A stretch of DNA of 64,000 nt from positions 2,524,001 through 2,588,000 of the forward strand of contig NZ_CP035733.1 of the NCBI RefSeq assembly GCF_009768975.1, written 5' to 3'. This DNA comes from Sphingorhabdus lacus (lineage in GTDB: Bacteria; Pseudomonadota; Alphaproteobacteria; Sphingomonadales; Sphingomonadaceae). Under the pieces are notes generated by a model. That model was not told the DNA's origin and ran no database searches. It was given only the letters and a program-made list of their open reading frames with translations. The stretch's first letter is position 1. Every line of letters starts with the position of its first letter. The position numbers and the translations under genes were made by a program. Positions 21,254 to 50,467 of this stretch are shown one piece after another.

Positions 21254-21328
21254 GGCCCCTTCGTCTAGCGGTTAGGACGCGGCCCTTTCACGGCTGAAAC
21301 ACGGGTTCGATTCCCGTAGGGGTCACCA
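21254..21328 (+). tRNA. tRNA-Glu (anticodon UUC)
   Basis: A 75-nt cloverleaf. The acceptor stem pairs GGCCCCT with AGGGGTC (one G-U). The anticodon loop CTTTCAC gives anticodon TTC, the T arm contains GGTTCGATTCC, and the terminal CCA is encoded. Its 3' end is the attachment site of the element that follows; the tRNA itself is intact. Confidence 0.97.
21308..21328 (+). repeat. attL core (tRNA-Glu 3' end)
   Basis: CGATTCCCGTAGGGGTCACC plus a final A, forming the T-arm 3' side, acceptor strand and CCA of the tRNA. The other copy at 50447-50467 differs only at the fourth base (T here, G there). Confidence 0.9.
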
Positions 21329-21426: not shown

Positions 21427-21514
21427 CGGTTTTGCGTGATCAGCCTCGTAACACGATTCATCCACCGTCCCGTTCGCCTTTAAGCGCCCCGCCGTGCCGG
21501 ATGGAGCGATTTAC

Positions 21515-23521
21515 ATGGGCTTGGACACCTATATCTGGCGTCGCGGGAAAACATTTCACTTTCGCCGCCGTATCACCCGTCAAAATGGAGACTACCGTCC
21601 TATAAGCATTTCTATGAAAACCCGCGACCCGGATCGCGCGCGCGTATTGGCGCGTCGACTGGCTTCCCGCTGGGATATGGAGATGACGATGTTGGAGCAT
21701 TCTTTCGCAGCGCCCATGACCGCCGCCCAGCGCAGCCAAATTTTCAAGATGGCAATGGCGGAGGAATTGACGCTAGCGACCGCTCATAGCCTTGATCGGT
21801 CGACATTTAACGATGCCGAGGAAAAGAGACGAGCGCGGATCTACGCGGCTGCTTACGATGAGGAGCGGCAGCGTTATGTTCGCGGCGCACAGCCTACGCT
21901 GTGGGACAACTTAGACGAAGAAGATCAAAAAATCGCAGAGAAGCTTCATGGCGTTTACGTGTCACGGCATTCCACCGAGCGGCGAATTATGCCCGATTAT
22001 ATTGAAAAACTCGGTATTGGTGTCAGCGAAGGCAATCTGTTCGATGCCATAAAAGCACATTATTCCGGAAGGATAGAGGCGCAACAGCGCAGCGCGTTCC
22101 TGGCGAATCCTGCCGTCCTTGCGCGCGGCGATGCGACAGCCGCGTTGCTGGACGACGATTTCATTGCATTACTAAGGCTCGCAAATAGTCAGGGCGCTAA
22201 TCCTCATGCGAATGAAGCCACGAATCCGAACGCTTCCGCCACAATCCAGATACCCCAACCGGCTAACGATACAGAGTTTCCTTTCGCGCGCCGCGACGAG
22301 CGCAGATTTTCAGAAGTTATTCGGCATATCATCGACAAGAAGCTCGCCGACAAAGATTGGAAGGCCGAAACTGGCGATCAAAACCGGATCTTGCACATCT
22401 TTGCATGGGTCACCGGCGACAAACAATTATGCGAGTATAGGCAATCGGATATCTCGACATTTGTCGCGGCGTATGAAGAAGCACCTGCGGGGTTTCGCTG
22501 GATGGATCATATTAAGGCCAAGCCGCAGTTGCCTTGGACCACGGTCAAAGCCGGCTTTCCCGAGAAACGAGGCGAAACGCGATCGGCCGCAACCTTTAAT
22601 CGGGACGTTGGTGTTCTCCAGGCGGCATGCCAGGTTCTCGGCGCAGAAGATGGCCCCTGGGAACCGAGATCTGGTGATCGGCTCGTCTTGGCAGCCGTTA
22701 AACGCAAAACGATCGACCAGCCTGATCCGCTTGATCCAAAGCGAATGCCGTGGACTCCCTCGCATTTGGAAGCGCTATTCAACTTGAATCTCTACACTGG
22801 CGGTGGTGGTCACCTTAGGCGCCTTGAGGAAAGCCATTTGCCCACGGTTTGGCACGATGCAGCCTATTGGGTGCCAATGGCTGGGTCCTACAGTGGCGGT
22901 GTTCTAAACGAATTGTGCGGATTGGAGCTAAGGGACGTTAACCTTGACTGTGCAATTCCGCATTTTTTGATCCGCGATAACATGACGCGATCCAAGGATG
23001 GTGTCGAGCGAGCTGGCGCGAAAACACGTTATCGCATCCGCCATGTTCCAATACACAGGGAGCTTCTACGTCTAGGATTCGCAGATTACGTTCGGGCGGT
23101 TGCCAAGAATGGCAACACCAAGCTCTTCCCGGAACTCTACACAATTAAAAGTGGTGGCGGTACAATGTTTTATGCGCGAGCTTGGGTGAATTTGGTTGAC
23201 GCAGTCGACGCCCAAATTCGCCTGCCCCGGACGTCCGATGGCAAACGCGCCGACTTTCATTCGCTGCGAACTTACTCTGAAAGTATTCTTGCAAGCATCG
23301 ACGCATCGCAGGCTCACATAGACCGCATTTTAGGCCATGCGTCGGATGGAACTGGAGCCAAGCACTACAACCGACGGATGCACGTGATTGGAATAGACAA
23401 GTATCTGGAGGAATTACGGACACTGATGGAGGACTCATTTGTAGTTGTGACCGGCCACCTCCAACCGACTGGGATCAAATTGTTACCGCTAGAGCATCGC
23501 AGCCGGACTGGAGCGGCATGA
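21515..23521 (+). CDS. int: Tyrosine site-specific integrase (DUF6538-type N-terminus)
   Basis: A 668-residue tyrosine recombinase beside the attL site, so the likely integrase of the element. The N-terminus (MGLDTYIWRRGKTFHFRRRI) matches the DUF6538 type of integrase. The catalytic domain keeps the Lys region (KTRYRIRHVPIH), HSLR of box II, the ILGH histidine and the HYNRR tyrosine. The box I arginine expected in the G-A-R-x-x-E-L segment is Val463 (SGGVLNEL), which may impair catalysis. The ATG at 21515 has a GGAG site 8 nt upstream and is preferred over a GTG at 21494. Confidence 0.9.
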   Translation: MGLDTYIWRRGKTFHFRRRITRQNGDYRPISISMKTRDPDRARVLARRLASRWDMEMTMLEHSFAAPMTAAQRSQIFKMAMAEELTLATAHSLDRSTFNDAEEKRRARIYAAAYDEERQRYVRGAQPTLWDNLDEEDQKIAEKLHGVYVSRHSTERRIMPDYIEKLGIGVSEGNLFDAIKAHYSGRIEAQQRSAFLANPAVLARGDATAALLDDDFIALLRLANSQGANPHANEATNPNASATIQIPQPANDTEFPFARRDERRFSEVIRHIIDKKLADKDWKAETGDQNRILHIFAWVTGDKQLCEYRQSDISTFVAAYEEAPAGFRWMDHIKAKPQLPWTTVKAGFPEKRGETRSAATFNRDVGVLQAACQVLGAEDGPWEPRSGDRLVLAAVKRKTIDQPDPLDPKRMPWTPSHLEALFNLNLYTGGGGHLRRLEESHLPTVWHDAAYWVPMAGSYSGGVLNELCGLELRDVNLDCAIPHFLIRDNMTRSKDGVERAGAKTRYRIRHVPIHRELLRLGFADYVRAVAKNGNTKLFPELYTIKSGGGTMFYARAWVNLVDAVDAQIRLPRTSDGKRADFHSLRTYSESILASIDASQAHIDRILGHASDGTGAKHYNRRMHVIGIDKYLEELRTLMEDSFVVVTGHLQPTGIKLLPLEHRSRTGAA

Positions 23522-23610: not shown

Positions 23611-24495
23611 ATGACTAATACTACAAACCGCTTAACGGTCGACGTCGCTAAGAATGTTGTCAAAAAAACCGATTCAGACGTCCGCATTCTTCACCGCGTT
23701 GCGCAGCTAAAAGATCTGCAGCTCGCACCCCGTGGCAAGGGGCCATTTCGCATTGTTGGTATCCTTGACACCGAAACAACCGGTATCGACCCTGAACAAG
23801 ACGAGATAATCGACCTCGCACTCGTAACGCTTGAGATAAATGGCGTTGGCGAGATCGTGAAAATAATCAGCGCGCAAGAAGGGCTTCGAGAGCCGAGTAT
23901 TCCGATACCGCCTAAGATTACTGCTATCACAGGCATTGCCGATGCCGACGTTCAAGGTCTGAAATTTGAGACAGCGGTGGTGGAGCACCGTTTGCATACT
24001 GCTGACGTGTTGATCGCGCATTGTGCAAGTTTTGACATTGGCTTCGTGGAGCGTCTGATCCCCAGTATCGCAGGGGCAGCATGGGCATGCTCGGCGAAGG
24101 ATTTTGATTGGCTGACAGCTGGGTTTGACGGCCGCAAACTGGGGCACTTGCTGAACCAAGTTGGCTATTTTAACGACTCCCACCGCGCGATGACCGACGT
24201 CGTTTCGCTGGTCCATTTGCTCGCGCATCGCCTGCCCAGTGGCCGAACAGTACTAAGCGATTTGCTAGATAATGCTTCGTGCAGGATGACCCGCCTAGAA
24301 GCGTGCGGGGCGCCTTATAGTAAGCGTCATCAGCTGAAGCGTCGGGGCTATTCATGGGATGCACGTGCGAAAGTGTGGTGGATCGAACTATCACCAGTTG
24401 AATGTGATGCTGAGGAGGATTGGCTCCGCGACAACATAATTGCCCGCAAGCATTTTGATCGCACGTCAATCACGTGGCGCAATCGGCATCGCTGA
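23611..24495 (+). CDS. DEDDh 3'-5' exonuclease (DnaQ/epsilon-like)
   Basis: A 294-residue protein with an exonuclease domain at about 45-215. Exo I is ILDTETTGID (Asp and Glu ligands), Exo II is AHCASFDIGF, and Exo III is HRAMTDV with the His-x4-Asp of the DEDDh type. A C-terminal region of about 60 residues (YSKRHQLKRRGYSWDARAKVWWIEL) resembles the tail of DnaQ-like proteins often found on mobile elements. The start is supported by a GGAG site in GCAGGAGTTACC. It lies 90 bp after the integrase gene on the same strand. Confidence 0.85.
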   Translation: MTNTTNRLTVDVAKNVVKKTDSDVRILHRVAQLKDLQLAPRGKGPFRIVGILDTETTGIDPEQDEIIDLALVTLEINGVGEIVKIISAQEGLREPSIPIPPKITAITGIADADVQGLKFETAVVEHRLHTADVLIAHCASFDIGFVERLIPSIAGAAWACSAKDFDWLTAGFDGRKLGHLLNQVGYFNDSHRAMTDVVSLVHLLAHRLPSGRTVLSDLLDNASCRMTRLEACGAPYSKRHQLKRRGYSWDARAKVWWIELSPVECDAEEDWLRDNIIARKHFDRTSITWRNRHR

Positions 24496-24625: not shown

Positions 24626-25513
24626 ATGATCATGCAACCTACCCAAACCCGTGAGCCCGCCCGTCCGCGGTCGTATGTCGTCCTTGATCTCGAAAGCGCG
24701 GTCCTTGATGAATCGGGTCACCAACGCTATCAACTGATGGAGCGCTGGAAGCCAAATAATGAAGCGCCGTCTCGTCGTGGCTACAAGCGCAGCGAAGACC
24801 CTTTGAAAACGCCGCGCTGGCCATTCCAGACAATTACCACCTCCAGTGTCATGACGTTGATCGAGCATTTGGATGGCAATTTTGACATCGCCACGTTCGA
24901 AACCTTTAGTGCACCGGATCTCGATGAGCGCGAGGTCGTTAAGGGCGTAATGAAATCGTTAGCAGCCGCGCCTCAAGGCGCTGAGCTGGTGACCTTCGCC
25001 GGAATGATGCACGATATTCCAATATTCACGTTGGCGGCGATGCGTCACGGTCTTAGTCTGCCACCAGCTTGGCGATGGCTGGCGTTTGGCGGAGCAGACC
25101 GAGCGCGCCACCTAGATTTTGCTCGGATTATGTCCGGAGGCATGAAAATGAAACAGGTCCATATGGCCGAACTGCTTGCCAGCCTCAATATCCCCGCAAA
25201 AATCAGCGCGCCAGCATTTGCAATGGCTCGGCATATCTATGCAGGTGAATGGCAGTTGGTTCAGGAAGGCTGTGAAGGTGATGTTATCAGCACCGCATTG
25301 ATGCTAACCAGATGGCGAGGACTGCTAGACCCCCTGGCGCCGATGGAGGTTGTCGAAGACAGGATACTGCGGCGGATTGTGGAGCTTCGCCCTGATCGCA
25401 GTTACACCAGCACGATCAAAGCCCGGCGCATGAGAAAATTTTCACAACAGCTTCTCGCTGCTGCCAACGACGCCGCAATCCTCGCGCCTTGGCTAGATGT
25501 TGACGCGGCATAG
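24626..25513 (+). CDS. Predicted PolB-like 3'-5' exonuclease
   Basis: A 295-residue protein resembling the predicted 3'-5' exonuclease domain of the DNA polymerase B family. YVVLDLES at 17-24 matches Exo I (Asp, Glu), VTFAGMMHDIPIF near 130 matches Exo II, and GCEGDVISTALMLTRW near 215 matches the last acidic motif with its Asp. HLDFARIM near 165 is also typical. Catalytic activity is inferred from these motifs only. It follows the DEDDh exonuclease by 130 bp on the same strand. Confidence 0.65.
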   Translation: MIMQPTQTREPARPRSYVVLDLESAVLDESGHQRYQLMERWKPNNEAPSRRGYKRSEDPLKTPRWPFQTITTSSVMTLIEHLDGNFDIATFETFSAPDLDEREVVKGVMKSLAAAPQGAELVTFAGMMHDIPIFTLAAMRHGLSLPPAWRWLAFGGADRARHLDFARIMSGGMKMKQVHMAELLASLNIPAKISAPAFAMARHIYAGEWQLVQEGCEGDVISTALMLTRWRGLLDPLAPMEVVEDRILRRIVELRPDRSYTSTIKARRMRKFSQQLLAAANDAAILAPWLDVDAA

Positions 25514-25593: not shown

Positions 25594-26322
25594 CTACTCG
25601 TTCAGCAGCAGCTCCGCCATATTGTCCAAGCTTGCTTTGCTCGCCTGCCATTCGGAACAATGACGGTCCAAAAGCCAGTAGAATCGCTTACTGTGGTTAT
25701 GCTCCTGCAAGTGGCAAAGTTCATGGATCAACACATAGTCGATGCAATGCTTGGGAGCTTTGATTAAAGAGGGGTTCAAATTCATATTACCAGATGGTGA
25801 GCAACTGCCCCATTGCTTGTTCATCTTTAAGAGTCGAAACTCGGGCGGGCTTTCCAGCCAGGGCAGCTCACTTGATAAAAGCGAGAGTCGGCTAGCAAAA
25901 TAAGCCTTAGCGCGTTGCGCATACCAATTTCGTAATCTCCGGCGAACGGCGACGGGATCACTTATCGGCAACGTCACCTCTATTGCACCACGCATGCAGC
26001 GAACGCGAGATGGACTTAGGTTGTCTACGGCAACCTTTAACCGGTAGCGACGGCCTAGATAAAAATGCGCTTCACCTGAAACGTAGGTGCGCGGCAATGC
26101 ATGTTCTCGTAACGCCGCCGTTTCGGAAAGTTGACGGACAATCCACCGAGCGCGCTTTTGGACCGCAGCTTGAACCTTGGCTGTGGAACTGCACAATGGA
26201 GCCTCAACCACGACGTTAGAATCCGGTAGAACGTGAATGCGAATTCGGGACCGCAATCGGTCATTCTCATTCACCGAATATGGCACGTTGACGTTACCAT
26301 AACGAAGCAGGCCTTCGTTCAT
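25594..26322 (-). CDS. YgjP-like (DUF45) M48-type metallopeptidase
   Basis: A 242-residue protein with the zinc motif HELCH at 200-204 and a further His at 210 in EHNHSKRF, typical of the YgjP/DUF45 family. WGSCSPSGNMNLNP near 171-184 is also a family hallmark. It is the last gene of the restriction operon and overlaps hsdR as ATGA. Members of this family are common companions of type I restriction genes; the role is not established. Confidence 0.88.
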   Translation of the reverse strand: MNEGLLRYGNVNVPYSVNENDRLRSRIRIHVLPDSNVVVEAPLCSSTAKVQAAVQKRARWIVRQLSETAALREHALPRTYVSGEAHFYLGRRYRLKVAVDNLSPSRVRCMRGAIEVTLPISDPVAVRRRLRNWYAQRAKAYFASRLSLLSSELPWLESPPEFRLLKMNKQWGSCSPSGNMNLNPSLIKAPKHCIDYVLIHELCHLQEHNHSKRFYWLLDRHCSEWQASKASLDNMAELLLNE

Positions 26323-29300
26323 TGCAAGCCTTGGAAAAGACCAACGCGGGTCACTTCAATAACTCGTTCGGTGATCGCCTTCGCTTGGTCCAATCCAGTA
26401 TGCGGGAACAGCAAAGGCAGTAACGATTTACGGATGGCGGATTCAATGTTCTGAGGGTTTAGTGAGTTCTCTGCAACGGCTGTACGAACCGCTATATCCA
26501 TCGCGAGAGCAAGATCCTCAAACGCGATAGAATCAGATTTTAGAACAGCTTCGTCGCCAAGTTGCAGCCGCATTAGCCCGAAATATGCTGCCGCATGTCG
26601 GTTATCGGCGATTCTTTGTGGTGTACCTTCAACGTGCCGCGACGCCAAATCTTCATCAAGTTCTTTGAAGAGGGCATATTGCCGTTTTGCATTGCCAAAC
26701 ATAGCTTGGGCTTCCGCAATCGCTTGCCGGAGCAACTCGGAAAAGTGGCGTTGGGCAAACGGATCGTCAACGAGTTCCTGTTCAATTGTTCTCTTCAAGC
26801 GGCTCTTGATGATGTCGGTTTCATTCCTTGTCTTTTCGTCACTCCAGCTATCGACGTCTTCATGGCGAGCCGGGTCGTTTATGAGGACAGCCCCATCGGC
26901 CTCTTCGATTTTCTCTCCAATGACGTAACGGTCTACAAGCTTCCGAATTTGATTTTCATATGCACTGAAATCGACCGTTTCTTGTGCATCTTGCTTGGCC
27001 ATCCGCCGAAGGCTGGTAAAGAATTTGAGGTCGCGCTTATAAGTCGCAATCTGCCCTTCAGTGACGGACGCATCTTCGAAAAATGATCGAGTCGCCAAGG
27101 CAACTCGCAAACACATACCAAACTCGGTCAAAGCCTCGTAAAAGTCTTCCCGGACCATCTGAGTGATATCAAGAGGCACTCCATCTGGCTGCTCTCGGAA
27201 TCTCGGAACAAGAATCTGTCGGTACTGCTCAATATCAGCGCGGTTTTTCACGCTAGCAAAAAGGCCCCAAAGGGTATCGTGTAACGAAGGGAGTCGCTTA
27301 TATTCGGTGTTAACGTTGGAATAGAGCGTATCAATGTCGTCGAGATCAAAGCCCCCCTGCGTCCGCTCCGCCAAATCCTGATATTCAGCTAAAGCGGAAT
27401 CAAGTTCGCGCAAGATGCCACGATAGTCGATTAGCAGCCCGTATTTCTTCTCCTCATGCAGCCGGTTTACTCGCGCAATTGCTTGTATTAGATTATGTTG
27501 TTTCAGTGGCTTGTCGATATAGAGCACAGCGTTTCGAGGCTCATCAAAGCCGGTCAAAAGCTTATCCACGACGATCAGAATGTCTGGCTTTCCCTCTGTG
27601 CCAAAGTCTTCAATTGTCCGTCGCTCATAATCCTCGTCATCGCCTTTGACGTTATCCTTCCACCATTGCAAAACCTCGGGCAATTCGGCCTCGTCAACTT
27701 CCTCATGGCCTTCGCGCGTGTCGGGCGAGGAAATGATGACGGCGCTGGTGACCAGACCGGTTGCATCAAGAGCCTTTTTGTAACGGATTGCCGACAGCTT
27801 GCTATCGGTGGCAAGTTGCCCCTTCAGCCCCATGTCGCGTGCGCCAAAATGCTCGCTAAAGTGAACCGCAATGTCCCAGGCAATAAGGTCAATGCGGTTC
27901 GCGGAGCCATAAACCGGCCCTTTTTTGCCATATTTCTCTTTCAGGTCGCTCTTCTGTTTATCCGAAAGGCCGATGGTGATCTTTTCGAACCAATTGTCGA
28001 TGGCCGCTTCGTTTATATCGAGGACGGGCTTTCGTTCCTCATACAGCAAGGGCGTAACTGTTCCGTCCGCAACCGCGTCCTGCATTGTATACGCATGGAC
28101 AATTCGGCCGAACTTGTTGGCGGTCTTGTCATTTTTCAGCAGGGGGGTGCCGGTGAACGCCACATAGGCGGCGTTCGGCAGGGCGTGTCGCATCCTCTCG
28201 TGATTTTCGCCGCCCTGGCTACGATGCCCCTCATCAACTAGCACAATGAGATTGGGGCTATTGTTGTGGCAGGCGTCAAGCTTCGCTGCGCTGGCGAATT
28301 TGTTGATGATCGTGAATATGATCCGCTCGGTTCCTTTGCCGATCCTGCGGGCAAGGTCTCGGCCAGAACGGGTCTTTGCACGCTCGCCTTCTTTGTCCGC
28401 TAAATCTGAACCGAATGCCCCGCCTGTCAGGAAGTTGCCCGCCAATTGCTTTTCAAGGTCGCGCCGGTCGGTAACGACAATTAGGCGGCATTCGCGCAAC
28501 GCATCGTCGAGCAGCAAAGCCTTGCAGAGCATCACCATCGTGAAACTCTTGCCCGATCCTGTGGTGTGCCAAATAACACCACCTTCACGCCCGCCGTCAG
28601 GTCGTATGACGGCAATTTCGCGCAACAGTGACCGGATACCGAAAAACTGTTGGTGCCGCGCCACGATCTTCTCGACCTTGCGGTCAAACAACACATAGCT
28701 GCGGATGAACTCAAGAAATCGGTTCGGCGAGCACAGCGAAACCAGCAAGCGATCCTGTCCTGTCACTGCCTGCTCGCCGTCCCATAAATGATTGAAATGT
28801 TCACGCACTTCGCGCACTTGGCTCTTTAGGATGGCCGCGCGCGGATCGGTTGCCAGCGCCTTGTTTTTGACGCCAAGAAAATGATCCTCGACAAATTCCT
28901 CCTCTCGCCATTGCGCCCAGAATTTGCGAGGTGTTTTTGTGGTGCCATAGCGTCCGTCGGTCATGCCTATGGACAACAACAGTTGTGCGTAAGCGAACAG
29001 CAACGGAATCTCGTCCTGCCCCTGGTTTCGGATAGTCTGGCTAATGCCTTCGTCCACCATCGACTTATTCGGGTTGCCGCTGTCCGGGCGTTTGGCTTCA
29101 ATGACAAGCAGGGGGATGCCGTTGACAAAACCGACCATGTCGGGCCGGCGCGTGTGCGTGCCGCTGGTCGAAAGCAGCTCATATTCTTCGGTGATGTGAA
29201 AAGCGTTGGTTTGCGGCACTGCCCAATTGATGATTGGAACGGTGATGCTGATGCGCTTCCCATCGACAAATTCGGTGACTGTGATGCCCAGTGTGAGTGC

Positions 29301-29594
29301 GTTGTAGAGCCGCTCGTTTGCGGTCATTAGGCCCTCGTTAAGAGCGGGCGATGACAGTTCGCGGATGATCTGGTCGATGGCGTTGGGCGAAAGCGAATGG
29401 ATTTTACCCTTATGTTCAAATGTTCGCCTTTGCAGTTCATCGACTAACACCGGGCGAAGCAAAACCTGCGCATTGCTGCCACGCATTGCGATGCATTCGG
29501 CGGGCGACACATATTCCCAGCCAAGCGCTACTAGCGTTGCAAGCGCTGGGATGTGCGCGCTGTAGAGCTCTGCCGTGTTAGGAGTGAGGGTCAT
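26319..29594 (-). CDS. hsdR: Type I restriction endonuclease subunit R
   Basis: A 1091-residue motor-nuclease subunit that translocates DNA and cuts away from the recognition site when HsdM and HsdS are bound. The N-terminal nuclease has Asp152 and IEAK (Glu166, Lys168). The helicase part has Walker A HTTGSGKS at 343-350, DEGH at 453-456 and FTGTPLL as motif III. The frame is open from 29627, but the ATG at 29594 overlaps the stop of the Abi gene as ATGA and starts at the natural N-terminus. It appears intact. Confidence 0.96.
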   Translation of the reverse strand: MTLTPNTAELYSAHIPALATLVALGWEYVSPAECIAMRGSNAQVLLRPVLVDELQRRTFEHKGKIHSLSPNAIDQIIRELSSPALNEGLMTANERLYNALTLGITVTEFVDGKRISITVPIINWAVPQTNAFHITEEYELLSTSGTHTRRPDMVGFVNGIPLLVIEAKRPDSGNPNKSMVDEGISQTIRNQGQDEIPLLFAYAQLLLSIGMTDGRYGTTKTPRKFWAQWREEEFVEDHFLGVKNKALATDPRAAILKSQVREVREHFNHLWDGEQAVTGQDRLLVSLCSPNRFLEFIRSYVLFDRKVEKIVARHQQFFGIRSLLREIAVIRPDGGREGGVIWHTTGSGKSFTMVMLCKALLLDDALRECRLIVVTDRRDLEKQLAGNFLTGGAFGSDLADKEGERAKTRSGRDLARRIGKGTERIIFTIINKFASAAKLDACHNNSPNLIVLVDEGHRSQGGENHERMRHALPNAAYVAFTGTPLLKNDKTANKFGRIVHAYTMQDAVADGTVTPLLYEERKPVLDINEAAIDNWFEKITIGLSDKQKSDLKEKYGKKGPVYGSANRIDLIAWDIAVHFSEHFGARDMGLKGQLATDSKLSAIRYKKALDATGLVTSAVIISSPDTREGHEEVDEAELPEVLQWWKDNVKGDDEDYERRTIEDFGTEGKPDILIVVDKLLTGFDEPRNAVLYIDKPLKQHNLIQAIARVNRLHEEKKYGLLIDYRGILRELDSALAEYQDLAERTQGGFDLDDIDTLYSNVNTEYKRLPSLHDTLWGLFASVKNRADIEQYRQILVPRFREQPDGVPLDITQMVREDFYEALTEFGMCLRVALATRSFFEDASVTEGQIATYKRDLKFFTSLRRMAKQDAQETVDFSAYENQIRKLVDRYVIGEKIEEADGAVLINDPARHEDVDSWSDEKTRNETDIIKSRLKRTIEQELVDDPFAQRHFSELLRQAIAEAQAMFGNAKRQYALFKELDEDLASRHVEGTPQRIADNRHAAAYFGLMRLQLGDEAVLKSDSIAFEDLALAMDIAVRTAVAENSLNPQNIESAIRKSLLPLLFPHTGLDQAKAITERVIEVTRVGLFQGLQ

Positions 29595-30529
29595 TTGGTA
29601 CCACCCCACAATTGCCAATCCGTCCAATTTGCAGGAAAGCCCATGTCCGCATCGCGGCCCGGTGCAAGGGTTGCCATATGATCAATCAGTCGCTGACCCC
29701 AGCCATTTGCAGGTTCACATTTGTCGAGCAGATATTTGAGAAAGGCGAGAGTGTTATAAAGCTTGTCGTTGGCTGTCCGATTTAGAGCCCTCGCCAATTC
29801 CGGCGGGTTCTTTTTGGGCAATTTCAAAGTCGCTTTAAGCCGCCGATTCCAAAGACGTCCATGGTGCGCGCAGGTGTTACGGACGTTAGAAATATGTTGA
29901 ACGGCAGGAACGAAAACTATTTCGTCGATTGCGAACGGTGCGGCCACTAATTGTCGGTTGGACCGTCCGTCCAGCAAAGCGTACCAACGAGACAAAAGCC
30001 CAAATGACATTAACTCTGACGCCATCCATACAGGTGGGCGCGTCGGTCCGGAATATTTGGCTTTATAGTGTAGAATGAAGGTGTCTTTTGATCGGGCGGT
30101 TTCTTCGTCCAACTTGCGACAGTTGCCAACAAATTTCCGTTGGTCGGAATAAAGGTGTCGGTTCAAGTAGCCGTGGGAACCTCCCTGCGTTGCCAAGACA
30201 TAAGCCCAACTGCCCCGAATCGCGACTTCGATCCGTTCAACCGCGTCTAATACGAGCAGGCGCAAAGTGCGGTCGAACTCGTACAGCGCGATAACGTCCT
30301 CGAAAGTGGTGCCGGGCCTAAATCGTGGCCCTGCTTGTCCCTTCGGGTACTCGAAATAGAGCCAGTAAGCGCTGAGGCGATAATAGCTGATATGTTGCAA
30401 GCAATGTGTTGCCATTGCATGATCGCCGATGGCCATGCCCTCGCCCTCCAGCTTTGCAATCTGCTGGGCAATAGTTAGCGCTGGCTTGGTGAACGGCACT
30501 TTGGCTTGGAGGATCGGCGGTAGCGTCAT
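29591..30529 (-). CDS. Abi family (AbiD/AbiF-like) abortive-infection protein
   Basis: A 312-residue Abi_2-type protein. The N-terminus KPALTIAQQIAKLEGEGM and YYRLSAYWL are family features. RNTCAHHGRLWNRR near 225 supplies the R-x4-H motif of HEPN ribonucleases. These proteins act in phage exclusion, probably by RNA cleavage; activity here is inferred. It is embedded between hsdS and hsdR and overlaps hsdR as ATGA, so it belongs to the restriction operon. The ATG at 30529 with AAGGTGG upstream was chosen over a frame opening at 30583. Confidence 0.88.
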   Translation of the reverse strand: MTLPPILQAKVPFTKPALTIAQQIAKLEGEGMAIGDHAMATHCLQHISYYRLSAYWLYFEYPKGQAGPRFRPGTTFEDVIALYEFDRTLRLLVLDAVERIEVAIRGSWAYVLATQGGSHGYLNRHLYSDQRKFVGNCRKLDEETARSKDTFILHYKAKYSGPTRPPVWMASELMSFGLLSRWYALLDGRSNRQLVAAPFAIDEIVFVPAVQHISNVRNTCAHHGRLWNRRLKATLKLPKKNPPELARALNRTANDKLYNTLAFLKYLLDKCEPANGWGQRLIDHMATLAPGRDADMGFPANWTDWQLWGGTK

Positions 30530-30662
30530 GTGATTGCCACCTTGCCCGTGCTGCGGGCAAAAAAAGTCCCTCCTGGTGCGCATCGTAGAGAGGCGTGGAG
30601 GGCTCTGTTGATGTGCAGATAGCGACGCAAGGCCGTTTTGTCAACCAGAAGTTGACTTTTGG

Positions 30663-30706
30663 TCCAGTGCGCGTCAAAGCGATGCATCGCTTTGACGCGC
30701 ACTGGA
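30663..30706. repeat. 44-bp perfect palindrome between hsdS and abi
   Basis: A perfect inverted repeat without spacer, arms TCCAGTGCGCGTCAAAGCGA on each side of a central TGCA. Adding a G-U and a G-C pair outward gives 24-bp arms. No T-tract follows on either strand, so it is not a standard terminator. It sits 32 bp after the hsdS stop and 134 bp before the abi start, and may act as a processing hairpin or a protein site. Confidence 0.9.
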
Positions 30707-30737
30707 TCACTAATCCGATCACTGGATGAAATATCGG

Positions 30738-31979
30738 TTAGCATGTTTTCTCCTCCAAATCTACCGTAACCCGCCGTTTGCCTGTGAGGAGTTGCTGCAT
30801 CAGGGCGGATTTTTCATTGCGAAGAGCGGCTAGTTGGTTGAGCAACGTTCGCTCCATTTTTTCAGCTTCGTTTATCACCTCAGCTATTGCAGTTTGCTCT
30901 TCGTGTCCTGGCGCGTGGAGAGATGTGTCAAAGAAATCCACTACGCTGACGTTCAACAAGCCGTGATTGCGCGCGCCTTCTTGGGCGATGGCTGAAATCT
31001 CCCGATTGAACAGACCAGCTTCAAAATAATGCCGAAAGAATCCGTGGTCATGCCCGTCATTTGCTAAGCGAAAGCAAATATACAGGCTGGAAACGATGCC
31101 GCTGTCATAGCGTTCTAATGGTTTGAAAGCTCCCATCGGGTATCCGTCGGAATAGCTCTTGTTATACGCGAAATCGCCATTGCGCAGCAAAGTGTATCCC
31201 CGCACATCTTCGCTCGCGACGCTCTTGTTGAAATATTCAACCTGACTGACCAGGCCATGTTGTGCCGAAATTGTCAGGACATTAGTATTTCCAACGTCAT
31301 TCTTTTGCCGGACGCGCTCAAACACCTCCGAAAATTTTATCCAACGCCAATCCGCCGAAAAGCCCGGCAGGCGTTGTGTGCCGGTGAGGAGCGATTGCAT
31401 CAGCGCCTTTTTCTGGGCACGGGCGTTGGCAATAAGTGTCTCCAGCGTTTCGATCGCGTGATCCCATGTCGACAAAATCTCCGCAATACGCCTTTGTTCA
31501 GTTAGCGGCGGGAGCATTATAGGATAATCACGCAAATCGGCAGGGCTTATATGCGGAACTGCTGTTTCAGTCTGAACTGCTTGAACATGTTGATCGAAAT
31601 GATGACCAGAAAAGAATTGTTTCATCAACCCTTGATGCAAGGTGCCTCTGGCTCTGAGACGAGCTACCCGCTGCACCAACAGGCAGGGCAAGTCAGCTTC
31701 GGTAACCTCGGCAATTTTCACCCCCGAGGGAAGCCACGTTCGATCCATTGCAACTACAAAATCGCCCGCTCGCAGCTGATAGCGGTCCATCTCAGCGGCG
31801 CGTTCTAATGGGAACCGCTTCACATCGCGCCAACGCAATCGATGTGGCGCGACGTTGTCTCCGCGAAGAAGCTTAACGTCTTGCTCATCGGATGTGTATT
31901 CAGCACTCTTGAATGCAAAGCCGGTAAGAATTTCAGCGTGCTGACCTATTACGGTGGCTTTCCACCCCTTGGGAATCAT
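30738..31979 (-). CDS. hsdS: Type I restriction specificity subunit S
   Basis: A 413-residue subunit with the usual two target-recognition domains (about 1-150 and 205-345). Each is followed by a conserved helix region: TEQRRIAEILSTWDHAIETLE with KKALMQSLLTGTQRL, and EEQTAIAEVINEAEKMERTLL with KSALMQQLLTGKRRV. It should recognise a bipartite DNA site with HsdM. Its ATG overlaps the stop of the 27-aa ORF as ATGA. Confidence 0.95.
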   Translation of the reverse strand: MIPKGWKATVIGQHAEILTGFAFKSAEYTSDEQDVKLLRGDNVAPHRLRWRDVKRFPLERAAEMDRYQLRAGDFVVAMDRTWLPSGVKIAEVTEADLPCLLVQRVARLRARGTLHQGLMKQFFSGHHFDQHVQAVQTETAVPHISPADLRDYPIMLPPLTEQRRIAEILSTWDHAIETLETLIANARAQKKALMQSLLTGTQRLPGFSADWRWIKFSEVFERVRQKNDVGNTNVLTISAQHGLVSQVEYFNKSVASEDVRGYTLLRNGDFAYNKSYSDGYPMGAFKPLERYDSGIVSSLYICFRLANDGHDHGFFRHYFEAGLFNREISAIAQEGARNHGLLNVSVVDFFDTSLHAPGHEEQTAIAEVINEAEKMERTLLNQLAALRNEKSALMQQLLTGKRRVTVDLEEKTC

Positions 31980-32059
31980 GCCTTATCCCCTTTGAAACTG
32001 CGCAAAGGCCTCGGCTTAACCCCGTCCACGGTATTATACCGGATGACTTCGTCTACCAT
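31976..32059 (-). CDS. 27-aa ORF bridging hsdM and hsdS
   Basis: A 28-codon frame that reads MVDEVIRYNTVDGVKPRPLR and then seven more residues. Its ATG overlaps the hsdM stop as TGATG, and its stop overlaps the hsdS ATG as ATGA. These exact junctions on both sides make it likely to be translated, either as a real micropeptide or as a coupling leader that carries ribosomes from hsdM to hsdS. No known family was recognised. Confidence 0.55.
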   Translation of the reverse strand: MVDEVIRYNTVDGVKPRPLRSFKGDKA

Positions 32060-33564
32060 CAGAAACCAAGCTCTTTCAAATAGCCGTCCATTTTTAACTC
32101 AAGTGTGGCCAGCTCGTCTTTTAGTTTGAGCCGCTCTGCGCGTACGGCAACAAGGTCGATCTCCTCTTCTTCTTCGAACGTATCTACATAACGCGGGATA
32201 TTGAGGTTCCAGTCGTTACCCGCGATTTCCTCTGGCGTAGCAAGGTGGGCGTATTTGGGCGCGCTTTCGCCTGCTTGGATAGTCGAAATGATTTTGTCGA
32301 GGTGGTCGCGGGTTAGCTGGTTCTGGTTCTTTCCAGATTTGAATTCGCGACTTGCATCGATAAAAAGAACGTCGTTGGTCGGCCTGTTTTTGCGCAAGAT
32401 AAGGATCGCGGCAGGAATGCCCGTCCCATAAAACAGCTTTTCGGGTAGACCGATCACGACGTCGAGTAGATTCTCTTCAATCAGCTTGCGCCGGATCGCA
32501 CCTTCGCTGCTTCCCCTGAAAAGGACACCGTGGGGCACAACAACCGCCATACGCCCTGTGCGCGGCTTCATCGTTTCGACCATGTGTAGGATAAAAGCGT
32601 AATCGCCCTTAGTACGTGGCGGCAAGCCGCGCCGGAAACGTCCAAAGCGGTCGTGCTCCGCTGTGTCATGCCCCCATTTGTCTAGGCTAAACGGCGGGTT
32701 GGCGACTACGATATCAAAATGCTTCAATCGATCTTCGGCGTCGAGCAGCTTGGGGTTGCGGATTGTATCGCCCCATTCAATGCGGTGATTATCCTCGCCG
32801 TGCAGGAACATATTCATCTTCGCGAGCGCCCACGTGCTGCCAATGGATTCCTGACCGTAGAGCGCATATTTCTTCGATCCGCTTTTAGCGACCACACGTC
32901 GCCCGCACTTCATCAACAACGAGCCAGACCCACAGGTGGGGTCACAAGCTTCTTCGCCCTCGTTCATGTCCATGATCTCCGCCATCAGCTGCGAGACTTC
33001 CGGCGGCGTATAAAATTCGCCAGCCTTGCGCCCGGCATCTGATGCGAAATTCTTGATTAGAAATTCATAAGCGTTGCCGATGACGTCGAGGTCGCCAATT
33101 CGCGACGGGCGCATGTTCAGCTCGGGTTTTTCGAAATCCTCCAGCAAATGGCGAAGCAGATCATTCTTCTGTTTCTCTTCGCCAAGCTTGTTCGAATTAA
33201 AACTGATATCCTGAAAGACGTCGCGCAGTTTGCCGATATTGGCTTCCTCAATCGCATGCAGCGCTTGGTCGATCCTCTCACCATTGCCGGGTTCATGGCG
33301 GCGCTTGTAAAGTGCGGTAAAGCTTGCATCTGCTGGCAAAACGAAGCGTTCGTTGCGCATCATTTCGGTTACCAATTCAGGCGCGTCGGGATAATCCTTG
33401 GCGTAGGCGTCATAGTGATCCTGCCAAACATCGCTGATATACTTCAGGAACAGCATCGTAAGGACAAAATCCTTATAGATGTCAGCGGCTACGGTTCCCC
33501 TAAAGGTATCACACGCACCCCAGACCGCCTTATTCACATCGTCTTGTTTAATCTGGTCGGTCAT
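32059..33564 (-). CDS. hsdM: Type I restriction-modification DNA methyltransferase subunit M
   Basis: A 501-residue N6-adenine methyltransferase. It has the HsdM N-terminal helical domain (about 10-130), SAM motif I DPTCGSGSLLMKCG near 205 and catalytic motif IV NPPF near 289 in IVVANPPFSL. Host DNA is methylated when it pairs with an S subunit. The start overlaps the half-size S gene stop as ATGA, and the stop overlaps the 27-aa ORF. Confidence 0.97.
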   Translation of the reverse strand: MTDQIKQDDVNKAVWGACDTFRGTVAADIYKDFVLTMLFLKYISDVWQDHYDAYAKDYPDAPELVTEMMRNERFVLPADASFTALYKRRHEPGNGERIDQALHAIEEANIGKLRDVFQDISFNSNKLGEEKQKNDLLRHLLEDFEKPELNMRPSRIGDLDVIGNAYEFLIKNFASDAGRKAGEFYTPPEVSQLMAEIMDMNEGEEACDPTCGSGSLLMKCGRRVVAKSGSKKYALYGQESIGSTWALAKMNMFLHGEDNHRIEWGDTIRNPKLLDAEDRLKHFDIVVANPPFSLDKWGHDTAEHDRFGRFRRGLPPRTKGDYAFILHMVETMKPRTGRMAVVVPHGVLFRGSSEGAIRRKLIEENLLDVVIGLPEKLFYGTGIPAAILILRKNRPTNDVLFIDASREFKSGKNQNQLTRDHLDKIISTIQAGESAPKYAHLATPEEIAGNDWNLNIPRYVDTFEEEEEIDLVAVRAERLKLKDELATLELKMDGYLKELGF

Positions 33565-34172
33565 GCGCTGATGTGCCTTTCGATTTTCAATATTTCTGCC
33601 GCAATTGCGTCGATCTGACGGGTGCGATTACTAATTAATTCATTTAGAATGCGCCGTTCATTTTGGGCTGTAGTGACAACTGCCATCAGCGAACGTTGCA
33701 TGTCTAGAGATGGTAATGCGAGGGGAAGGGATTCGATCGCTCCCCGCGTGATATTTAAGATGTGGGAACCAGTGGCGGCCTGTTGTAAATAGTCTTGGCA
33801 CGACCGTTGGTTTATCTGCCAAGCCAGAAAAGAGGGCATGACCTGCGTCTCGTCAAAAACGCGAATGACAAAAAAGTGCGGCGAGCAAACCGCCGCGCAT
33901 GGGACTCTATCGAGGGCAAGGGCAAAATTGCGCCGACCTCGGGTGGTGAATATCAGGTCGCCGGTTGCAAGCAAATCGGCAGAACGTTGCGATGGTAGTT
34001 TTACGCGAGCAATGGCGTTCCAATTTACCCCGATAACCTCGTCCACATTACGCATCTGAATGGCACCAACATCGCCTTGCTCAAGCGCATCAATTGCACC
34101 GCGAAACGGATAGCCTGCACGGATATCGGCAATTTCGACCAACGGAAAATGTTTTAGTGCAGTAGAACTCAT
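33561..34172 (-). CDS. Half-size specificity (HsdS-like) protein, single target-recognition domain
   Basis: A 203-residue protein with one S-type target-recognition domain (FPLVEIADIRAGYPFRGAID through ESLPLALPSLDMQRSL) and one C-terminal helix region. That is about half of a normal HsdS. It is the first gene of the operon, ahead of hsdM with ATGA overlap, and the frame is uninterrupted, so it does not look like a decayed fragment. It could dimerise to act as an alternative specificity subunit or regulate the system; which is unknown. Confidence 0.8.
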   Translation of the reverse strand: MSSTALKHFPLVEIADIRAGYPFRGAIDALEQGDVGAIQMRNVDEVIGVNWNAIARVKLPSQRSADLLATGDLIFTTRGRRNFALALDRVPCAAVCSPHFFVIRVFDETQVMPSFLAWQINQRSCQDYLQQAATGSHILNITRGAIESLPLALPSLDMQRSLMAVVTTAQNERRILNELISNRTRQIDAIAAEILKIERHISA

Positions 34173-35783: not shown

Positions 35784-36671
35784 ATGCAAAATTACAATCA
35801 ACCTTCATCTCTCACATCCCTCGTCTTTCTCGTTGTAGCCGCGAACGCTGGAGGAGAGGGAAAGACAACGATTGCCAAACTTATACAGGCGCTTTGGCGG
35901 CTATTTGGCTCGCCCGTGCACTTATTCGATTCTGATGCCGGCAATTGGTCAGCAAGTGCAACTGATCCAGAAGCGATCCCCGTCGGATGGGGCGTGCAAA
36001 CAATCAAGGTTCCCGAAATCTTGGCGGCGACGAAGGGTAAAAATGCGATCATGGACCTTGGGGGAAATGCACTGGCAAGCGCAAGAGAGATCGCCAATCT
36101 GGTGCCCGCGCTTCAGAAAGCTTACTCCGATGCGGGTTATCGTACGATAGCGTTGCTACCGTACTCTACAAATAAGCCTGGTGCGACGAGTTCGATCAAG
36201 GACGTGAAAGACGAGCTAATAGGTTTTGAGAAGTGTTATGTAAAAGTCAATCGCGACGGTTCAGCACACTATTATGGCAATTTGCCAGCCGATGACACGG
36301 TCAGCATCGGACATCTCAAACCTGGGTTTCAGACGTTAATTATGGACGAATACAAATCCTTCGATGCTTTGATATCCGAGCCAAAAGACAATCATGGTTT
36401 GGCTAGAGCTTATATCGGCCAATGGATGCATGATTTTGCAAAGCAACCCTTTATCAAATCCATTATTGGAGGCGAGATTGCCATTTTGCGGGGAATCAAC
36501 GCACCGCGACGAAACCTTCGCTTCAATGTTGCAAGGCTAGAACAGACCACAGACGATGCACTTTGGGAAAATGTTAAGAAGAGTAATTTTCTAGACGAAA
36601 TTGATGCCGCAGGATGGTCAGCTGAGGGGTTACGATCAGTCGCAAGCAAAATTGATCGCGGAATACTTTAA
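35784..36671 (+). CDS. ParA/MobD/TraL-like P-loop ATPase
   Basis: A 295-residue protein with the loop ANAGGEGKTTIAKL near residues 19-32. This is the ParA-type KGGxGKTT loop, but the signature first lysine is alanine. FDSDAGNW near 50 and IMDLGGNA near 90 fit the other nucleotide-binding positions. ParA-like proteins of this size (MobD, TraL) sit in mobilisation operons. It ends at a strong terminator, and the relaxase gene follows. Confidence 0.65.
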   Translation: MQNYNQPSSLTSLVFLVVAANAGGEGKTTIAKLIQALWRLFGSPVHLFDSDAGNWSASATDPEAIPVGWGVQTIKVPEILAATKGKNAIMDLGGNALASAREIANLVPALQKAYSDAGYRTIALLPYSTNKPGATSSIKDVKDELIGFEKCYVKVNRDGSAHYYGNLPADDTVSIGHLKPGFQTLIMDEYKSFDALISEPKDNHGLARAYIGQWMHDFAKQPFIKSIIGGEIAILRGINAPRRNLRFNVARLEQTTDDALWENVKKSNFLDEIDAAGWSAEGLRSVASKIDRGIL

Positions 36672-36945: not shown

Positions 36946-37092
36946 TTTTGCGAAACAAAAAATAATGAAGCATGCATCAAACATTCTATTATGAAAATCA
37001 CGGCAGAAAAATCTGTGAATTGTTTCAAAAAAGTTGAATAAAATTCCTCAGATGCCTTGGTGGGACCAGAAGTACTATCCTATACACCAAAT

Positions 37093-39522
37093 ATGCTCCC
37101 TTCCGAACCCACCAATCAATCACTCGAACTGGCAGACGAGATAGCAGCGCTCCTCACGCGCCTAAGGCTAGTGCGTGAAGGCCTGCTGCCATGGCAGGTC
37201 GATCAAGTAACGCATTATAGACGTCCGGCTAAAACCGGACAGGCGCGAGAAGCAAACCAATCGATCTCGCCGCAATTTCATGTTCCATCCACGCGTCCGC
37301 TACGGCTGACAAATATGCAGGGTGCATCCAGTTTCCATTTTAGCCACCGGCCAGTTTCGAAGGCTAAACCCAAGCTAGAACGAAAGCATGGGCAAGCGGT
37401 GTCCGGGGCCGCACGTAACTTCGGCCAATATATTGAACGCGAAACAGTGCTGGCAAAAGCGGACGAGCTACTCGTTGAGGTTCGGCGCGCATCACTTTCA
37501 CCTTTCCCCTTATCAATCACGCAGGAGCAATATGATGAATCTACCGATCAAACCGACCGACCAGCTTCCAACCGAGACTTGGTGGCGGAATTCCAACTAT
37601 TTGAGTCCGGTTTTGCGAACCATCACGCAATCGAGCCCATCTGGGGCGACGCTTCCAGAATTGCCAAACCCGATGCCGATCTGTGCCTGCTGCCCAGCGT
37701 CGACTTGGTATGTGATGGATGGCAAGCTGATGGTATATTGCTTGGCGCTGAGGATGTATCCTCATTATCAAGGAAGGGTCATCACCGATTGCGACTCGCG
37801 GCGCAGGGCGATAGAATTAACGAAAAGAACGTAAAGCCAGCAAAGCTAAAATATGGCGGTGAAACCGGTCGGCATGATGCGTACATCGATAGATCGAATG
37901 CGGTCGCTGTGCAGCCAGACGGTGGGCGTGCGTTGATCACAAATATTGATGAAAATGCTGTTGAACGCGCAAAATTCTGGGCACTGGTCGAGCAGCATGA
38001 AGCAGTCAAAAGTGACGACCAAATGACCGTTCGACTAGCGGATGCTCCGGCCTTTTGGTCAACCGTATTATCCCAACCCGATTGTCCACCGGATCTACAC
38101 GCCGGAATCAGCAAAGCTCCGCACAGCAGCGCCCATCGATTTACGATTTCATCAGGGTCCGAAGTACGGGGATTTTTGGCACGACAGTCCGGTTGGGTAC
38201 CTTTATCGAAAGGACGATCACACGCGAGTCAAGCGAAGCCCCTAGCTAAATTTCACGATGGTCGAGGCGGGCGCATCCAGTACCAAATTGTAGGCGAGCT
38301 GCCGAACGACCTTTCCGCCGCAGAACGTTTTGCCATCGTGCGTGATTTTGCGAAAGAATTTGAAAAGAGGGAGCTCCCGTTTGTTGCGGTTATGCACGCG
38401 CCTAACCACTCGAATGATGAAAAAAACTGGCATTTCCATCTCATTTATTATGATCGGCCGTGTCGTCGTATTACGCGGGGCGACATCCAGCAGCTCGCTG
38501 CCGAGGGCTACAGATCTAATCATCTAAAGCCCGGTGACTGGGATTTTGCTGTAGCGACGCCTAAAAAGGGACGGAGCAACGGTAGAGCGGTTCCACTGCG
38601 CCGAAATAAGGTCGCTGAAGTCACAGATGACAGCTGGCCTGGATTTTTGCGCACGCGATTGGCAACAATTACCAATAAACATCTGAAGGCATCTGGCGTC
38701 GATCGTAGCGTCGACGCTGGAACCTTCGAAAAAATGGGCATTCCCGCAGCACCACAGGACCACCTTGGAAAGGCCAATGCAGCTTTGGAGGATCGAGGAA
38801 TTGCAACACGCACCGGCAGCTCGAACGAACAACGCCAGTGGAATGCCATCATAGCGGCAGCTAACATCGAGCTTGAGCAGACGCTGCAAGGTATTTGGTT
38901 GCAAAGCACCGAGGAAGCCAAAGCGACCGAACATAAGCAGCCGTCAGATGAATCGGTTAGGTTGCTTACTCAGGCGGCGCATCTTGAGCACCAGGCCTTT
39001 ATACTAGAACAGGAATTAGAGCGTGTTTACTCCCGCCCAAGAGAAGTTCGCCGGAAAAATCAGCGTTTGTTGAATGCTTGTAAAGCAGACGCCGAAACAT
39101 TGTCCGAGCGTCAACGGAATGATGCCCAGCGCTTGGTAGAGTCGGCAAACACTTATATTGAAGGACTAACTGCATTCTTAGGAGAGGCTGTATGGATACC
39201 CGATACTATACAATGGATTGCAAGAAAGCTGAAATTCCAAGCCTCGGAACAACAAGTGCAAATGTATGCATCACCACAAGCAGAACGAACCGACTTGCAT
39301 GTTTCCAGCAGCAACGCTGCGGAGACGAAAATTCAGGCACGTGAAGCTCCGCAGGAAATACGCAAACATCAAAACACCCACCCTGGACCTGCTGAGCCAG
39401 AACTTTCGTTAAAGCAGGATGCGGAACCAACCGCAGTCGCTGCTGCACATGCGGTCGACGATGCTACCAAACGCGCATCGATGCAGGCCGCGCTGGCAGC
39501 TGCTAGAGGAATGGGGCTTTGA
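37093..39522 (+). CDS. MobA/MobL-type (MOBQ) relaxase
   Basis: An 809-residue relaxase that would nick oriT and lead the strand in mobilisation. The metal motif HAPNHSNDEKNWHFHLIYYD starts at about residue 434, preceded by the family block AERFAIVRDFAKEFEKRELP. In typical members this motif lies within the first 150-250 residues, so there is a long N-terminal region of unknown role. Residues about 590-809 are helical, Glu/Gln-rich and repetitive, ending near an Ala-rich tail. A TTG at 37057 is a less likely start. Confidence 0.8.
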   Translation: MLPSEPTNQSLELADEIAALLTRLRLVREGLLPWQVDQVTHYRRPAKTGQAREANQSISPQFHVPSTRPLRLTNMQGASSFHFSHRPVSKAKPKLERKHGQAVSGAARNFGQYIERETVLAKADELLVEVRRASLSPFPLSITQEQYDESTDQTDRPASNRDLVAEFQLFESGFANHHAIEPIWGDASRIAKPDADLCLLPSVDLVCDGWQADGILLGAEDVSSLSRKGHHRLRLAAQGDRINEKNVKPAKLKYGGETGRHDAYIDRSNAVAVQPDGGRALITNIDENAVERAKFWALVEQHEAVKSDDQMTVRLADAPAFWSTVLSQPDCPPDLHAGISKAPHSSAHRFTISSGSEVRGFLARQSGWVPLSKGRSHASQAKPLAKFHDGRGGRIQYQIVGELPNDLSAAERFAIVRDFAKEFEKRELPFVAVMHAPNHSNDEKNWHFHLIYYDRPCRRITRGDIQQLAAEGYRSNHLKPGDWDFAVATPKKGRSNGRAVPLRRNKVAEVTDDSWPGFLRTRLATITNKHLKASGVDRSVDAGTFEKMGIPAAPQDHLGKANAALEDRGIATRTGSSNEQRQWNAIIAAANIELEQTLQGIWLQSTEEAKATEHKQPSDESVRLLTQAAHLEHQAFILEQELERVYSRPREVRRKNQRLLNACKADAETLSERQRNDAQRLVESANTYIEGLTAFLGEAVWIPDTIQWIARKLKFQASEQQVQMYASPQAERTDLHVSSSNAAETKIQAREAPQEIRKHQNTHPGPAEPELSLKQDAEPTAVAAAHAVDDATKRASMQAALAAARGMGL

Positions 39523-50446: not shown

Positions 50447-50467
50447 CGAGTCCCGTAGGGGTCACCA
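50447..50467 (+). repeat. attR core (tRNA-Glu 3' end fragment)
   Basis: CGAGTCCCGTAGGGGTCACC plus a final A; no other part of a tRNA precedes it. The surrounding stretch 50267-50685 has no gene: it holds the right arm site, this repeat and about 220 bp of chromosome with no signal that I can see. Confidence 0.9.

Follow-up and report, generated by a model that had tools for sequence, protein, structure and literature searches.

A type I restriction-modification operon of Sphingorhabdus lacus with a putative RNA-controlled AbiF cassette in its S-R gap

A type I restriction-modification (R-M) operon of Sphingorhabdus lacus carries a gene for an AbiD/F-type HEPN protein between the genes of its specificity (S) and restriction (R) subunits. 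The initial annotation of the 64,000-nucleotide stretch of DNA in which it lies (the window) took the overlap of abi with hsdR as a sign that restriction and abortive infection are made together. The question that arises is whether Abi is tied to the restriction enzyme or forms a separately controlled element. The comparison described below makes it quite probable that the S-R gap of this operon is a cargo site, which now holds an AbiF toxin-antitoxin cassette controlled by its own RNA.

Gene families were assigned using Pfam, PADLOC and NCBIfam. All seven open reading frames, which are read from position 34172 to position 25594 of the minus strand in the order half-size hsdS (half-S), hsdM, a 27-aa ORF (ORF27), hsdS, abi, hsdR and ygjP, were confirmed at the places and in the order first reported. 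The features of the operon are as follows.

33561-34172, minus strand: half-size HsdS with a single TRD, 203 aa (PADLOC Specificity_I, 5.8e-20)
32059-33564, minus strand: hsdM, N6-adenine methyltransferase subunit, 501 aa (Pfam HsdM_N and N6_Mtase; TIGR00497 above cutoff)
31976-32059, minus strand: 27-aa ORF, RhuM scar, which keeps TGATG with hsdM and ATGA with hsdS
30738-31979, minus strand: hsdS, full-size specificity subunit with two TRDs, 413 aa (PADLOC Specificity_I, 2.8e-103; Pfam Methylase_S)
30660-30709, minus strand: inverted repeat (hairpin) with 25-bp arms, 5′ of the abiF promoter (repeat search; arm comparison)
30616-30644, minus strand: σ70-like promoter of the abiF RNA, TTGACA-17 nt-TATCTG (aligned -35/-10 columns of 47 loci)
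30567-30602, minus strand: abiF RNA, RF03085, predicted RNA antitoxin (Rfam, 41.5 bits against a gathering threshold of 37)
30559-30565, minus strand: T7 run, predicted intrinsic terminator/attenuator upstream of abiF-hsdR-ygjP (47-locus comparison; fold of the short RNA)
29591-30529, minus strand: abiF, Abi_2 HEPN RNase toxin, 312 aa, with an R217-H222 motif (Pfam Abi_2; structure match)
26319-29594, minus strand: hsdR, restriction/translocase subunit, 1091 aa (PADLOC REase_I, 1591 bits; TIGR00348 above cutoff)
25594-26322, minus strand: YgjP-like/SprT zinc metallopeptidase, the last gene of the operon (Pfam YgjP-like, 4e-59)

The translation of hsdM contains the NPPF motif, PADLOC full-length matches cover residues 1-405 of the full-size HsdS, which has two TRDs, and the Pfam domains of HsdR (HSDR_N, SWI2_SNF2 and T1R_D3) correspond to an N-terminal nuclease and an SF2 translocase. 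The start of HsdR is ATG 29594, not the mechanically called TTG 29627. The family matches thus support the reading of the locus as a type I R-M operon with two S-like proteins; by gene content the operon is complete, and restriction and methylation activities are predicted. Direct reading of the junctions revealed ATGA overlaps between half-S and hsdM, ORF27 and hsdS, abi and hsdR, and hsdR and ygjP, and a TGATG overlap between hsdM and ORF27. The overlaps first described are thus present at these five junctions; between hsdS and abi, in place of a simple overlap, ca. 200 nt of structured control sequence are found. The ATGA overlap and the Abi_2 match also bear out that an AbiD/F HEPN gene is embedded between S and R and is translationally coupled to hsdR.

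The Abi protein matched Pfam Abi_2 with an E value of 1.3e-52, and also AbiD; Abi_2 was the only Pfam domain found in the 330-aa frame, which lacks a PrrC-type N-terminal ABC ATPase. The AlphaFold model (pLDDT 90) matched PDB 8VZ6, the PbAbiF dimer (Prevotellaceae) bound to ncRNA, with TM scores of 0.83/0.87 and an E value of 2e-17, and the structure search returned no other significant match; at the sequence level, the match to 8VZ6 had an E value of 5.4e-45. R217 and H222 of the R-x4-H HEPN motif, which are invariant in 14 sequences, correspond to R210/H215, whose mutation inactivates PbAbiF, and to R202/H207, which C. difficile AbiF needs for its toxicity. In C. difficile, toxic AbiF is bound and neutralised by RCd22, an RNA with abiF motifs (PMC12373285). 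The window gene shares with these systems (AbiF/AbiFr) an Abi_2 HEPN protein with R-x4-H and the same fold, preceded by RF03085, here with a predicted promoter and terminator. It differs from them in lying inside a type I R-M operon, with hsdR and ygjP behind the predicted RNA terminator, and in having one abiF RNA motif where RCd22 has two. By analogy with C. difficile, the window is most simply read as carrying a type III-like pair of AbiF toxin and RNA antitoxin. No close relatives of this AbiF were found in the viral contigs searched.

The 201 nt around the S-Abi junction form a much more stable fold than shuffled versions of the sequence do (z = -7.0), and they house the abiF RNA directly upstream of abiF. 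The longest Abi frame (330 aa) opens at ATG 30583. Since this codon lies inside the abiF RNA and Abi homologues align only from about residue 9 of that frame onward, the gene very likely starts at ATG 30529. Upstream of the RNA, TTGACA-17-TATCTG is followed by an AACA start context, and downstream of it there are seven thymines, 2 nt from the abiF stem. The -35 and -10 columns line up and are conserved across 47 AbiF loci, and a T-run follows the stem at 45 of these loci compared to 7.9% of random 18-mers. A strict promoter scan did not include the TTGACA-17-TATCTG site among its predictions; the assignment of the promoter therefore rests on the comparison of loci. From these conserved signals, the abiF RNA is predicted to have its own promoter and a terminator before the gene. 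The abiF RNA stem covaries in relatives; since the alignment was fitted to a covariance model seeded from the same motif, the pair counts lean its way and are supportive rather than independent. The control region (abiF RNA, promoter, hairpin and T-run) was absent from the initial annotation, and it would place Abi under a control of its own.

The hairpin has near-perfect 25-nt arms without coding constraint, as judged by codon-position test. It lacks a T-run and is therefore not a classical terminator. Genomes G000, G427 and G588 each contain exactly one such site, always at the same place and with compensated changes in the arms. As a general feature preceding AbiF the palindrome was rejected, since among the 47 loci it was present only in the close clade of the window. 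The viral contigs searched contained no copy of the hairpin, and the plasmids searched no close copy of the abiF control region. We also considered a 72-codon frame (ORF72, 30744-30526), which spans the S stop and the Abi start, as an additional coupled gene. Substitutions between four homologues are spread evenly across the three codon positions, so the segment is RNA/promoter region rather than protein.

Relatives of the operon were collected by HsdR from plasmids and from genome samples at the level of order, class and phylum, and their neighbourhoods were parsed. One further genome of the family has the same complete gene order (locus L058); there, Abi is 74%, R 73% and M 85% identical to the window proteins and the abiF RNA is present. 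It thus follows that the arrangement in the window did not arise by chance. At L058, a 122-aa ORF (L058:9023-9391, minus strand of the locus), whose start overlaps the S stop, lies between hsdS and the abiF control region. This ORF is lacking in the window, where the HsdS end EEKTC resembles the ORF end ERQTC, which suggests that the ORF was deleted and its end fused to HsdS.

Half-S, M, S, R and YgjP recur in this order among the relatives, with ygjP following hsdR in most of them, and two gaps vary. The M-S gap contains RhuM, ORF6N, Bro-N, DUF1016 or nothing. The S-R gap houses AbiF in eight parsed operons (the window, L058, L202, L203, L204, L207, L208 and L214). Elsewhere it holds Kiwa KwaA/KwaB (three operons: L092, L215 and L222), DUF3800 (four, in one case beside a HAD protein), Fic (two: L204, beside abi, and L225), DUF6119, DUF1016 and UPF0149 (two each), DUF4917 with an HD phosphohydrolase, AAA with RloB, or RhuM, and in several relatives it is empty. 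In most operons the hsdR start codon falls no more than 10 nt before or 4 nt after the stop codon of the gene in front, whatever that gene is. The coupling thus belongs to the slot and not to Abi. The proposal that restriction and abortive infection are made together through Abi-R coupling is not upheld by this result: the cargo of the gap is unrelated or missing from one operon to another, and R is usually coupled regardless.

The M-S gap of the window contains ORF27, which the initial annotation had not related to RhuM. Its N-terminus was compared with those of six slot-1 RhuM proteins from syntenic operons: five matched with a shuffle p ≤ 0.001, and the sixth, from L092, gave no match. In the corresponding gap of L058, 40-odd residues bring together the two ends, N- and C-terminal, of the L091 RhuM (MSGEIILC... 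AVEQHFIE...KLAADKSAK). Judged by these remnants, ORF27 is what a deletion has left of a RhuM gene, with the TGATG and ATGA junctions kept.

We also examined 80 AbiF loci from bacterial genomes, which are the closest matches to the query and not a random sample. In 28 of these 80 loci hsdM was found upstream on the same strand within ca. 6 kb. Where S could be placed, the order was M-Abi-S in 14 cases and M-S-Abi-R in 7, and AbiF followed R in 1. AbiF also stands alone, and it is accompanied by the RNA in each setting. A fixed position of Abi between S and R can thus be dismissed: AbiF was met as M-Abi-S-R, as M-S-Abi-R, after R and alone. Since AbiF and its RNA occur between M and S, after R and alone, AbiF does not need to be coupled to HsdR. 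The covariance model detected the abiF RNA just upstream of abi at about 50 of the 80 sampled loci, and at 11 embedded AbiF loci that it missed, a variant of the RNA was visible by eye. In a tree of 104 AbiF proteins, copies located in this operon type require at least four changes, from which it follows that AbiF cassettes were recruited into such operons several times. In the same tree, the window AbiF nests with that of L058 among stand-alone sphingomonad copies. At L098 (Aurantiacibacter), two type I R-M operons flank a stand-alone AbiF and its RNA; the first operon encodes an HsdR 74% identical to that of the window.

The half-S gene upstream of hsdM is present in 19 of 30 comparable operons, and its best orthologues are 43-49% identical to the window protein. 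Rather than a decaying duplicate of the full S, it is, as judged by this conservation, a gene family of its own. One may propose that it acts as a second specificity subunit, pairing with M as a dimer and methylating a second palindromic motif, which would be compatible with the cargo-site reading of the S-R gap. The half-S proteins form a single-TRD family with intact frames and a conserved place upstream of M, and functional S proteins in which one TRD is present twice are known (engineered EcoR124INT). Yet among close relatives half-S is more conserved than full S at equal R divergence (45% versus 36% at R identities of 70-100%, and 36% versus 28% at 60-70%), which also fits a fixed structural or regulatory role, and several operons have no half-S. 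We therefore regard the second-specificity proposal as plausible, while leaning slightly against it. The half-S of L202 looks frame-disrupted. Phase variation between half-S and S was considered and rejected: between positions 30500 and 34300 there are no direct repeats of at least 16 nt and no inverted repeat that pairs the two S genes, and the similarity of the proteins is weak.

The operon appears to lie inside a genomic island of ca. 29 kb. A tRNA-Glu gene (21254-21328) is followed by a DUF6538 protein (21494-23521), a probable tyrosine integrase, and the 3′ end of the tRNA is repeated over 17 bp (TCCCGTAGGGGTCACCA) at 50451-50467. Since the window also contains a gene for an 821-aa MobA/MobL-like relaxase (37057-39522) and a ParA-like gene (35784-36671), the island may be mobilisable. 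Two adjoining 3′-5′ exonuclease-like genes (23611-24495, RNase_T, and 24626-25513, DNA_pol_B_exo2) are located on the plus strand downstream of the operon.

In the mechanism that we favour, the AbiF cassette would comprise a dedicated promoter, a short abiF RNA that terminates by itself, and abiF. Judging from the characterised homologues, the RNA would bind the AbiF dimer and block its HEPN RNase. Most transcripts from the abiF promoter would stop at the T-run after the RNA, and occasional read-through, together with transcription from the hsd promoter, which may override the attenuator, would yield AbiF, HsdR and YgjP. A shortfall of the RNA, e.g., when a phage shuts down host transcription, would release AbiF, which would then cut RNA and stop growth, backing up restriction.

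Toxin-antitoxin modules can make the DNA on which they reside more stable, and the cassette might mainly retain the R-M operon or the island while contributing little to phage defence directly. The location of the operon in a putative tRNA-Glu island that encodes a relaxase and a probable integrase, as well as the free exchange of other S-R cargo, would agree with this. However, a large part of what the slot holds in relatives matches known or candidate defence families (Kiwa, PDC). Defence is therefore the likelier shared theme, and retention as the main role appears rather unlikely. One can also imagine that the abiF RNA is a shared rheostat, its terminator setting abiF, hsdR and ygjP together, and that loss or titration of the RNA in an infected cell would release AbiF and increase HsdR at once. 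If so, an RNA antitoxin would control a restriction endonuclease, and one small RNA would set both restriction level and suicide; we consider this unlikely. Quite improbable is an arrangement in which HsdRMS holds AbiF inactive until a phage anti-restriction protein frees it, with embedding and coupling functionally required: PrrC is a proven precedent of such a guard, AbiF is coupled to R in the window, and Anantharaman et al. (2013), who tabulated Abi2/AbiF/AbiD as embedded in R-M operons, proposed PrrC-like joint action for HEPN proteins of such operons in general (PMC3710099), but AbiF has its own predicted RNA antitoxin wherever it is placed, occurs alone or at other positions, and is without the ABC ATPase domain of PrrC, and the S-R gap of relatives holds unrelated genes.

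Several known systems resemble the locus. In EcoprrI/PrrC, too, a type I operon houses the gene of a HEPN RNase that serves as a second defence line, but PrrC carries an ABC ATPase and is held by the R-M complex, whereas AbiF is paired with a predicted RNA antitoxin. Other modules are known from the hsdS-hsdR gap. In enteropathogenic E. coli, the toxin-antitoxin module DarTG2 occupies this gap of a type I operon; it is not AbiF and has a protein antitoxin, a DNA ADP-ribosylation toxin and a regulator, RptR (PMC12255303). TgvAB of V. cholerae VPI-2 and Campylobacter RloF, located between hsdR and hsdS, are accessory defence genes inside type I operons near hsdS/hsdR, but they provide type IV-like modification-dependent restriction and are not RNases (PMC11411939). 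The S. lacus locus is thus a well-preserved example of known nested defence and not a new system; the AbiF-RNA pair has already been characterised and its structure solved. In the openly readable literature, to which the search was confined, we found no description of an abiF RNA inside a type I operon. The locus clearly illustrates how a type I restriction operon can serve as a chassis whose cargo between S and R is exchangeable, and the predicted RNA-controlled toxin that it now carries belongs to the family thought to have given rise to Cas13.
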